The translations under genes were made by a program, and so were the position numbers. A stretch of DNA of 64,000 nt from an uncultured Flavobacteriales bacterium (lineage in GTDB: Bacteria; Bacteroidota; Bacteroidia; Flavobacteriales_G; Salibacteraceae), in NCBI GenBank assembly GCA_913057205.1, contig CAJXNO010000010.1, positions 1 through 64,000 on the forward strand. Direction: 5' to 3'. Shown here one piece after another: positions 15,578 to 30,267 of the stretch. The notes under the pieces are model-generated. The model was not told the origin of the DNA. It saw nothing but the letters and a program-made list of their open reading frames with translations, and searched no databases. Numbering within the stretch: the stretch's first letter is position 1; each line of letters begins with the position of its first letter.

Positions 15578-15650
15578 CACGGGTGGTAGCAATCGAACCC
15601 CCAGCCCCTGGTTTTGGAGACCAGTGCTCTAACAATTGAGCTCCACCCGT
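15578..15650 (-). tRNA. tRNA-Trp (CCA)
   Basis: The 73-base cloverleaf has acceptor arms ACGGGTG/CACCCGT, T-loop GGTTCGATT and anticodon loop with CCA. The 3' CCA is not encoded. It lies 12 bases before secE and is probably co-transcribed with it. Confidence 0.95.
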
Positions 15651-15759: not shown

Positions 15760-15794
15760 AAAGTGTGAGGCTAAAAACTTAGCCCCACACTTCT
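15760..15794 (-). terminator. Rho-independent terminator after tuf
   Basis: Arms AAGTGTG.GGCTAA and TTAGCC.CACACTT, with one mismatch and a short loop, are followed on the minus strand by a T-rich stretch (TTCTGTTGTTTTAT). It separates tuf from the tRNA-Trp-secE-nusG-ribosomal unit, which should therefore have its own promoter. No clear TANNTTTG was found for that unit. Confidence 0.85.
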
Positions 15795-15811: not shown

Positions 15812-16996
15812 TTACTCGATGATCTCAGTCACCTGACCAGCACCTACAGTGCGTCCACCCTCGCGGATAGCGAACTTAAGGCCTTGGTTGATGGCAACAG
15901 GAGCGATCAAGTTAACCTCGATGGTCAAGTTATCACCAGGCATAACCATTTCACGTCCTTCACCTAGGATGATCTCACCAGTCACGTCTGTCGTTCTCAA
16001 GTAGAACTGTGGACGGTACTTGTTGTGGAATGGAGTGTGACGTCCACCTTCTTCCTTTTTAAGGATGTACACCTCAGCTTTGAACTTGGTGTGTGGGGTG
16101 ATGGAACCTGGCTTACAGATTACCATACCACGACGGATGTCAGACTTTTCAATACCACGAAGCAAAAGACCTACGTTATCACCAGCTTCACCGCGATCGA
16201 GGATCTTACGGAACATCTCAACACCAGTGATGGTAGAAGTCATTTTCTCTTCGAAACCGATGATCTCAACAGGATCTCCAGTGTTGATCACCCCAGACTC
16301 GATACGACCAGTAGCAACAGTACCACGACCTGTGATCGAGAATACGTCTTCAACTGGCATCAAGAAATCCTTATCTACGTCACGTGGAGGAAGTGGAATG
16401 TACTCATCAACTGCCTTCATCAACTCAAGGATCTTCTCTTCCCACTGAGCTTCTCCGTTCAAACCACCCAAAGCAGAACCTTGGATAACAGGAGCGTTAT
16501 CGCCATCGTACTCGTAGAAAGAAAGCAATTCACGGATCTCCATTTCTACCAACTCAAGCAATTCTTCGTCATCAACAAGGTCAACCTTGTTCATGAACAC
16601 AACGATTTGTGGAACACCTACCTGACGTGCAAGAAGGATGTGCTCACGTGTCTGTGGCATAGGACCATCTGTAGCAGCAACTACCAAGATAGCACCGTCC
16701 ATCTGAGCAGCACCGGTAACCATGTTCTTAACGTAGTCAGCGTGACCAGGACAGTCAACGTGTGCATAGTGACGTCCTTCTGTTTGGTATTCTACGTGTG
16801 AAGTATTGATGGTAATACCTCTTTCTTTTTCTTCTGGTGCGTTGTCGATAGAATCGAATGAACGCAATTCAGAGAAACCAGCCTTTGCCAATACGGTTGT
16901 AATCGCAGCGGTCAAAGTGGTCTTTCCGTGGTCAACGTGACCGATGGTACCGATGTTTAAGTGCGGTTTGGAACGGTCAAAATTTTCCTTTGCCAT
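15812..16996 (-). CDS. tuf: Elongation factor Tu
   Basis: The 394-residue GTPase delivers aminoacyl-tRNA to the ribosome. The P-loop [10 protein letters not shown] is near residues 19-28, DCPGH is the G3 motif, and NKVD is the G4 motif. Domains 2 and 3 are complete up to the final [11 protein letters not shown]. It is the last gene of a tRNA-Thr-Tyr-Gly-Thr-tuf unit, the same order as the E. coli thrU-tyrU-glyT-thrT-tufB operon. Confidence 0.99.
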
Positions 16997-17092: not shown

Positions 17093-17109
17093 ATTTAAAA
17101 GAACAATCG

Positions 17110-17181
<72 letters not shown>

Positions 17182-17283
17182 TTTTGCGCAGCGAATTGCT
17201 TCACTCCGCTTCAATAACCCCGAGCAGATTTTTCCTTTCAGAAAAGGCCACTCAACTCAGTCCGCCAAAAGCGAACTGAAAAG

Positions 17284-17356
17284 AGCGGGAGACGAGACTC
17301 GAACCCGCGACCCTCAGCTTGGAAGGCTGATGCTCTACCAACTGAGCTACTCCCGC
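17284..17356 (-). tRNA. tRNA-Gly (TCC)
   Basis: The 73-base cloverleaf has acceptor arms GCGGGAG/CTCCCGC, anticodon loop CTTCCAA with anticodon TCC, and T-arm GCGGGTTCGAGTCTCGT. It is third in the tRNA-tuf unit. Confidence 0.95.
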
Positions 17357-17476
17357 TTAATATTATCCGATAAATCGAATTATTTCAAATAACGTTAAGT
17401 GTTGCTATCGCAGCCACTTAAATCAAAAAGGAAGAAGCGCAACATCACTCCTTTCCCGTTCAAAGAACTTTTTTTG

Positions 17477-17559
17477 TGGGGAGAGCAGGATTCGAACCTG
17501 CGAAGGTAAAAACCAACAGATTTACAGTCTGTCCTCGTTGGCCGCTTGAGTATCTCCCC
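17477..17559 (-). tRNA. tRNA-Tyr (GTA)
   Basis: This class II tRNA of 83 bases has a long variable arm, as expected for bacterial tRNA-Tyr. Acceptor arms are GGGGAGA/TCTCCCC, and the anticodon loop CTGTAAA gives GTA. It is second in the tRNA-tuf unit. Confidence 0.95.
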
Positions 17560-17603
17560 CCTCCTTTCTGTTGAGTCAAACTGTTAGACCCACCTCAAAG
17601 GTG

Positions 17604-17677
17604 AGCCGGTGGAGGGATTCGAACCCCCGACCCGCTGATTACAAATCAGCTGCTCTGGCCAACTGAGCTACACCGGC
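17604..17677 (-). tRNA. tRNA-Thr (TGT)
   Basis: The 74-base cloverleaf has acceptor arms GCCGGTG/CACCGGC and anticodon loop TTTGTAA giving TGT (reads ACA and others). It is the first gene of the tRNA-tuf unit, about 55 bases after the predicted transcription start. Confidence 0.95.
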
Positions 17678-17714
17678 ACTTTTCTTTGTTATTTCAATGA
17701 ACTACATAAAAAAT

Positions 17715-17738
17715 GCAGACCCTTCGAAAAAGGTCTGC
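17715..17738 (-). terminator. Terminator after hpf, overlapping the tRNA-tuf promoter
   Basis: Arms GCAGACC/GGTCTGC with a short loop are followed on the minus strand by TTTTTTAT. The hairpin's 5' arm begins at the last base of the -7 box of the next promoter (17738), so a transcript starting from that promoter would lack most of this arm and could pass the terminator. Confidence 0.8.
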
Positions 17739-17767
17739 AAATTTATACATAGTTTCAATTGAAACAA
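17738..17767 (-). promoter_or_regulatory. Promoter of the tRNA-Thr-Tyr-Gly-Thr-tuf operon
   Basis: The minus strand reads TTG (17767-17765), 19 bases, then TAAATTTG (17745-17738), an exact match to the Bacteroidota housekeeping promoter TTG-N19-TANNTTTG. The predicted start is near 17732, about 55 bases before tRNA-Thr(TGT). The spacer is almost filled by the 14-base palindrome GTTTCAATTGAAAC. Confidence 0.75.
17752..17765. promoter_or_regulatory. Perfect 14-base palindrome in the tRNA-tuf promoter spacer
   Basis: GTTTCAATTGAAAC is its own reverse complement and lies between the -33 and -7 boxes, overlapping the -33 box by one base. A dimeric DNA-binding protein placed there would compete with RNA polymerase. 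It could also be chance in an A/T-rich spacer; no protein is assigned. Confidence 0.4.
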
Positions 17768-17811: not shown

Positions 17812-18120
17812 TCAAGCGATATGCGCCTGCTGCAACTTGCCTTTTTTGCGTCGAACTTGACGTCGTAAAGCTTCAGCTGCCAAAACAGTCGCTTCTTCAA
17901 AGCTCTTACACTGTTTTTTGGCAAACATTTCCTTACCTGGTGTATTCAATCGAATCTCTGCCACTTTGTTCCCATCTACGGTATTCTTATCGAGTCTCAA
18001 ATAGACCTCACCACTGATGATGTTGTCATAGATCAGGCCAAGCTTACTGACCTTCTCATGAATGTAGTTGATCAACTTCTGATCAGCATCGAAATGAATT
18101 GAATGCACTTTGATATCCAT
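17812..18120 (-). CDS. hpf: Ribosome hibernation promoting factor (HPF/RaiA family, short form)
   Basis: The 102-residue protein has the beta-alpha-beta-beta-beta-alpha layout of the S30AE/HPF family. It opens with MDIKVHSIHFDADQKLINYI and includes the VYLRLD strand and the AAEALRRQVRRKKGKL helix, whose basic residues contact 16S rRNA. It lacks the extra C-terminal dimerisation domain of long HPF, so it is the short type. These proteins occupy the decoding centre of idle ribosomes. It lies one base after the Xer recombinase stop and just upstream of the tRNA-tuf promoter. Confidence 0.9.
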   Translation of the reverse strand: MDIKVHSIHFDADQKLINYIHEKVSKLGLIYDNIISGEVYLRLDKNTVDGNKVAEIRLNTPGKEMFAKKQCKSFEEATVLAAEALRRQVRRKKGKLQQAHIA

Positions 18121-30216: not shown

Positions 30217-30230
30217 ATTGGTACAAAAAA

Positions 30231-30259
30231 ACCGCATGAACAACATGTGTTCATGCGGT
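30231..30259 (-). terminator. Terminator after the PorE-like gene, overlapping the purM start region
   Basis: A perfect 12-base stem ACCGCATGAACA/TGTTCATGCGGT with a 5-base loop is followed on the minus strand by seven T. The purM ATG lies only 8 bases beyond the T-run. The -7 box of the likely purM promoter abuts the 5' arm. Confidence 0.92.
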
Positions 30260-30267
30260 CAAATCTA
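30260..30267 (-). promoter_or_regulatory. -7 box TAGATTTG for purM, abutting a terminator
   Basis: A perfect TANNTTTG lies on the minus strand directly before the terminator's 5' arm. Transcription would start about 4-6 bases into that arm (near 30255), leaving a truncated stem. No TTG is at the exact 19-base position, so the call rests on the -7 box and on the parallel with the tRNA-tuf promoter. Confidence 0.45.

Follow-up and report, generated by a model that had tools for sequence, protein, structure and literature searches.

On the minus strand of the window (the whole stretch of DNA that was analysed, 64,000 nucleotides), the ribosome hibernation gene hpf is followed by a unit of four tRNA genes and tuf. 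The gap between the hpf stop (17812) and tRNA-Thr (17677) holds a TTG, a -7 box, a hairpin and a T6 tract, and the box and the hairpin run into each other. This arrangement raises the question of how one short piece of DNA might end the message of hpf and start that of the tRNA-tuf unit, and which of the two RNAs would form the hairpin.

The gene order along the minus strand is XerC-type recombinase, hpf, the tRNAs for Thr, Tyr, Gly and Thr, tuf and, further on, nusG, rplK and rplA. The identities of the recombinase and of nusG were confirmed with Pfam, and the names rplK and rplA were assigned by eye. The genes of the two units are the following:

17812-18120, minus strand: hpf, ribosome hibernation promoting factor, 102 aa (Pfam PF02482 Ribosomal_S30AE, E 4.2e-18)
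17603-17677, minus strand: tRNA-Thr(TGT), first gene of the tRNA-tuf unit (ARAGORN, Rfam)
17476-17559, minus strand: tRNA-Tyr(GTA) (ARAGORN, Rfam)
17283-17356, minus strand: tRNA-Gly(TCC) (ARAGORN, Rfam)
17109-17181, minus strand: tRNA-Thr(GGT) (ARAGORN, Rfam)
15812-16996, minus strand: tuf (EF-Tu) (Pfam PF00009/PF03143/PF03144)

Further features were seen at the far end of the unit. A 14-bp terminator-like hairpin lies directly 3' of tuf (15761-15792, minus strand), and between tuf and secE there is a tRNA (15578-15650, minus strand; Rfam 49.9 bits) that was missed by ARAGORN. Its anticodon, read by eye, is CCA, which would make it a tRNA-Trp. No TAnnTTTG box occurs between the hairpin and tRNA-Trp/secE, so secE-nusG may need read-through or another promoter.

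Promoter and hairpin at the hpf/tRNA-Thr junction

The elements between hpf and the first tRNA are listed here with the kind of evidence for each:

17765-17767, minus strand: -33 element TTG, N19 from the -7 box (sequence; conserved spacing)
17738-17745, minus strand: -7 box TAAATTTG (sequence; conserved before tRNA-Thr)
17732-17737, minus strand: CAGACC start region (CAnnCC), which doubles as the 5' arm of the hairpin (conserved with or without the hairpin)
17733-17734, minus strand: predicted start of tRNA-tuf transcription, C17733 or A17734 (box position in Flavobacterium psychrophilum)
17714-17739, minus strand: terminator hairpin, 11 bp, UUCG loop (terminator scan, folding, covariation)
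17708-17713, minus strand: T6 tract of the terminator (sequence, terminator scan)
17690-17702, minus strand: boxA-like GTTCATTGAAATA in the tRNA leader (sequence)

The last of these is a stretch that we take to resemble boxA; the leaders of relatives contain GTTCTTT(A/G)A variants and GTTCTTTAAAAT-like forms.

The hairpin has the hallmarks of an intrinsic terminator, a G+C-rich stem followed by a U-tract, and folds at -15.3 kcal/mol (z -5.07; none of 200 shuffled sequences was as good). The start region of the tRNA-tuf unit lies inside its 5' arm, and the first two bases of this arm, T17739 and G17738, are at the same time part of the -7 box. An earlier note had described a promoter and a terminator overlapping at this site, and this is confirmed: TTG-N19-TAAATTTG, the hairpin and T6 are all present, and the overlap at hpf/tRNA-tuf is real. 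The note had also let the box end on the first base of the arm. This detail is incorrect, as two bases are shared, and a one-base overlap is obtained only if the closing T-A pair is ignored. Calculated post hoc and from base composition only, the chance that a box ends at most 5 positions from a given hairpin start is about 0.0015, or about 2e-5 if TTG-N19 is included. Within the window's own genus, the stem has decayed in one genome (G005) and carries a mismatch in another (G004).

Downstream of hpf, the promoter TTG-N19-TAAATTTG (17738-17767) is an exact match to the Bacteroidota sigma-A consensus. The genome has no excess of TTG-N18-20-TANNTTTG, with 83 matches compared to 95 for the reversed control pattern, and the exact consensus string was thus discarded as evidence for a promoter. 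Instead, the promoter was accepted as real because of its conservation across junctions. HPF was searched in 60 relatives and in contigs of named genomes, from which the best 80 loci were used, mostly from Flavobacteriales metagenome bins; a class-wide sampling used about one genome per family. Many of the compared genomes are draft metagenome bins. The 110 loci yielded 81 distinct junctions with conserved contiguity of hpf and tRNA-Thr(TGT), after 10 duplicates and 19 loci without a tRNA-Thr start in reach had been left out; counted by family, the contiguity is seen in 33 families.

Among the loci listed, a TAnnTTTG box precedes tRNA-Thr in all 81 distinct junctions, and TTG is found at exactly N19 in 63 of them (the next commonest spacing occurs 6 times). 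In the class-wide sampling, hpf and tRNA-Thr are linked in 24 of 41 new families, and the box is present in 24 of these 24. The bases after the box are conserved as well: CA..CC follows it in 26 of the 29 junctions in which a hairpin begins at the box end (nested junctions) and in 51 of the 52 non-nested ones. In the window's own genome, TANNTTTGCANNCC has 18 matches compared to 4 for the control. Several of these copies precede the genes for tRNA-Arg, -Met, -Lys and -Glu and other genes, and 17 of the 18 have no hairpin at the box end, the copy between hpf and tRNA-Thr being the only one that has. Since CAnnCC is kept in nearly all non-nested junctions and at other promoters of the same genome, TAAATTTG-CAGACC can be assigned to the promoter. 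Judged by this sequence conservation, the promoter that overlaps the hairpin is real and conserved.

The spacer between the -33 element and the -7 box also contains a perfect 14-bp palindrome, GTTTCAATTGAAAC (17752-17765, minus strand). Of the 12 closest junctions (L001-L012), read by eye, 5 have it in identical form and the others do not.

Terminator layouts and stem pairing in relatives

Two layouts were found among the junctions: either the promoter is preceded by an ordinary terminator, in most cases directly 5' of the -33 element, or a hairpin starts at the box end and an upstream terminator is usually not found. With terminators called by simple rules, 25 of the 81 junctions had only a nested terminator, 42 only an upstream one, 4 had both and 10 had neither (Fisher 4e-9). 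An energy-based caller gave 20, 41, 10 and 10 junctions, respectively (4e-5). When one genome per family was used, the nested state being read in these 33 families only, the counts were 11 nested only, 8 upstream only, 0 both and 14 neither (p 0.031), where the zero for both is that of the strict caller. In this family table, f5 is represented by G125 (G089 is listed earlier) and each other family by its first listed genome with a match; f6 and f15 have no linkage at the hpf locus (L024, L023), and the 17 of the 41 newly sampled families without linkage are excluded. On the HPF tree, which is poorly resolved, the nested state changes at least 11 times, and states are shared by descent. A sign test on this tree was not significant, with only 2 independent pairs on well-supported branches.

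The earlier note had suggested looking for the same overlap in related genomes, and it does recur there, with a terminator that starts at the box end in 11 of the 33 families. Where the hairpin is nested, a separate terminator further upstream tends to be missing, which is what one would expect of a hairpin that ends the transcript coming from upstream. The 14 of 33 families in which the strict caller found neither terminator indicate that insulation is not required everywhere.

In junctions whose terminator lies upstream, L065, L069 and L097 among them, the start region can often be folded, by eye, into a small CCC-N4-GGG hairpin. It would form the very 5' end of the tRNA-tuf RNA and is possibly a seed of nested terminators.

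To look at the stem itself, 395 genomes from across the class were searched with a pattern in which CA..CC and GG..TG are fixed and two bases in each arm are free. The pattern matched 42 of the genomes, and the reversed control pattern gave 1 match. The 53 pattern rows correspond to 43 distinct places, as 10 rows that repeated a place at a different gap length were dropped. In 35 of the 43 places, which come from 18 families, the two free pairs both form; when the 3' arms were redealt among the places, the mean was 12.4 and none of 20,000 shuffles reached 35. Counting each family and type once, 18 of 25 pair, compared to a shuffle mean of 8.4 (0 of 20,000). The letters of the stem vary (GCAGACC/GGTCTGC, GCACTCCC/GGGAGTGC, GCACCCCTG/CAGGGGTG), and the pairing often extends into the box, to its last G and in the window to the preceding T as well. 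This covariation supports the view that the stem is selected as a stem. In three families (f18, f40 and f52), the partner of the CAnnCC arm is followed by TTCTTT, as seen by eye, instead of a U-tract; part of the pairing may thus serve a role other than termination.

Start site and fate of the two transcripts

In Flavobacterium psychrophilum, the TAnnTTTG box has been mapped at -12 to -5, according to the accessible part of PMC9723704. This position places +1 in the window at C17733, or at A17734 if a purine is preferred. An RNA of the tRNA-tuf unit that starts at +1 retains 5 bp of the stem (-3.0 kcal/mol), 7 nt away from the U-tract, compared to 11 bp and -15.3 kcal/mol for the read-through RNA. 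Over 49 nested elements, the median hairpin energy changes from -14.6 kcal/mol for the full hairpin to -4.5 kcal/mol for a start at +1, and in 42 of the 49 the truncated RNA has no stem or one that ends at least 4 nt before the U-tract. With its own RNA limited to five weak pairs, only the read-through RNA from hpf would make the terminator. The earlier note's statement that RNA started at the promoter is unable to fold the terminator is borne out by folding, with the start taken from F. psychrophilum. The discrimination depends on this start site, because with a start 1 nt after the box the RNA would still have a median of 9 bp, and the stem would abut the U-tract in 29 of the 49 elements. 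One tRNA-Met of the window's own genome has its mature 5' end only some 10 nt downstream of such a box, which indicates that starts lie close to the box.

We consider it likely that the promoter-terminator overlap joins two tandem units in such a way that read-through RNA terminates and promoter-born RNA escapes. The promoter of tRNA-Thr/Tyr/Gly/Thr-tuf would own TAAATTTG-CAGACC, and a complementary 3' arm and a U-tract would have been added just downstream of it, the promoter probably having come first and the arm later. A polymerase arriving from hpf would transcribe the last bases of the -7 box together with the start region, fold the 11-bp hairpin and presumably terminate in the cell. A polymerase initiating at the tRNA-tuf promoter would start inside the 5' arm, leave the base of the stem unpaired and escape, and the tRNA-tuf unit would be insulated from hpf read-through. 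A broader version, in which CAnnCC has repeatedly been made the 5' arm of an upstream terminator in Bacteroidia and the hibernation gene could also throttle the translation operon, appears rather doubtful to us. The throttling part would follow from the geometry, since a polymerase coming from hpf has to pass over the tuf promoter before it stops.

The hairpin might instead serve the tRNA-tuf RNA itself, as an attenuator in its leader or as a stabiliser of its 5' end, with transcription starting a few bases earlier, at the C or A that directly follows the box. The stem of nearly full length kept by such a start would fit this role, as would the occurrence of the element before tRNA-Thr-tuf where hpf is not upstream, and the several families in which the arm, by eye, pairs with a partner beside the boxA-like stretch and has no U-tract. 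Yet the box position mapped in F. psychrophilum (PMC9723704, in the part available) disagrees with this start, nested hairpins tend to replace upstream terminators, and the pairs often use the last G of the box, in the window also its T, which no transcript of this promoter contains. We thus regard a function within the leader as unlikely.

Range of the element and known systems

To see how far the element extends beyond hpf, 36 pattern loci were read in context. Most of them (25, one at a contig end) lie between hpf and tRNA-Thr-tuf; of the others, 3 separate the genes for S14 and S8, 7 follow an HU gene and 1 precedes that for L13, with gene names taken from Pfam for one locus of each kind. 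Outside tuf, the pattern loci thus belong to three kinds of junction, rpsN|rpsH, rplM and HU/RNase E/G. Some tRNA-Thr-tuf units that follow an mfd-like gene (TRCF domain) or another gene than hpf have the element too, and in G089 it is found between an OmpA-like ORF and purM (names by eye, by analogy with genes of the window). The terminator/promoter idea is not specific to hpf.

Two of these settings may be described further. Within the spc ribosomal-protein cluster, three genomes of the same family (L186-L188, L264) have a promoter-like box and a terminator-like hairpin between rpsN and rpsH. In family f21 (L192-L198, L263), the element follows the HU gene and is itself followed by a short ORF that begins with MPSGKK (by eye), and then by the RNase E/G gene.

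A second box with a hairpin is present in the window at 30230-30267 on the minus strand, in the gap that separates an OmpA/TPR gene (stop 30278) from the AIR-synthase (purM) gene. There, TAGATTTG leads directly into a hairpin of 12 bp and T7. We rejected this junction as a second conserved case: among the 30 purM loci listed, 2 of which have no upstream stretch, a hairpin ending about 7-25 nt before the purM start is kept in about 21, but a box at the hairpin start is found only in G000. The purM junction was therefore excluded from the evidence for nested promoters.

The possibility that terminators generally tend to carry such a box was examined in 1.264 Mb of sequence (464 kb from the genome of the window, the window included, and 800 kb from 20 other genomes) and rejected. 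For 345 hairpins, a box within 4 positions of the hairpin start (-4 to +4) was found 3 times, with a decoy mean of 1.32 and a maximum of 4.7, and 2 of the 3 coincidences fall in the window. The ordinary order is in excess, with the box 61-100 nt after the hairpin start (14 vs 5.4). This absence of a genome-wide association would suit a plain packing of two ordinary elements that touch in a short intergenic region and have no function for each other, and so would the shorter length of nested junctions (median 133.5 vs 174 nt). However, the stem starts from the last box base in at least 11 families, which share this register but differ in the letters of the stem, and junctions that lack the hairpin still have the CAnnCC arm; mere packing is therefore quite improbable in our view. 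A regulatory coupling, in which polymerases ending hpf stop on the tRNA-tuf core promoter and hpf transcription during starvation blocks initiation there, has the geometry on its side (the hpf 3' UTR would span the whole core promoter and end about 25 nt past the start) as well as the report, in the available text of PMC7055797, that the Salmonella tufB-secE overlap regulates expression, but the element is kept where the upstream gene is not hpf, and we judge such coupling very unlikely.

If, as we favour, the nested hairpin ends read-through RNA and spares promoter-born RNA, neighbouring units would be separated in a compact way. The promoter would supply half of the preceding terminator, which could thus tell transcripts apart by where they began, and one short DNA stretch could end one message and start the next. 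At least 11 families have the element at this essential tRNA-tuf operon. Calls of starts and ends overlap at such sites, which makes the element relevant to genome annotation, and it can be examined in TSS and 3'-end maps of Flavobacterium or Bacteroides.

A literature search yielded no description of a terminator nested at a Bacteroidota -7 box. Sigma-A promoters of Bacteroidota are described with TTG/TTTG at -33 and TAnnTTTG at -7 (PMC7366714, PMC9723704, both as excerpted). The window has both boxes with N19 spacing and differs in the CAnnCC extension at strong promoters, which these excerpts do not describe. In yeast, bifunctional terminator-promoter elements have been engineered, according to the excerpted text of PMC10298055. 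They are similar in that a single short piece serves both as the end of one transcript and as the start of the following one, but they are artificial, eukaryotic and work by another mechanism.

The closest parallels come from Salmonella. According to the available portion of PMC6134099, the native tufB terminator of the thrU-tyrU-glyT-thrT-tufB operon is said to matter for the downstream operon. The order Thr, Tyr, Gly, Thr, tuf is the same as in the window, whereas here the operon follows hpf and has the overlap at its 5' end. At tufB-secE and in other translation operons of Salmonella, inter-operon overlaps of terminator and promoter regulate expression and matter for fitness, as stated in the accessible part of PMC7055797, which credits them to Brandis, Cao and Hughes 2019. 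Both cases concern tandem translation operons, including a tRNA4-tuf operon, with a terminator that overlaps the next promoter. In contrast to tufB-secE, the overlap described here is at the head of the tRNA4-tuf operon and involves a promoter of the Bacteroidota type; as far as the Salmonella geometry is given by the citing paper, a further difference is that here the promoter comes first and its start region is the 5' arm of the terminator. Terminator-promoter overlap is thus known from Salmonella, and what appears to be new here is its position at the head of tRNA4-tuf, the Bacteroidota promoter and the use of the start region as a 5' arm.
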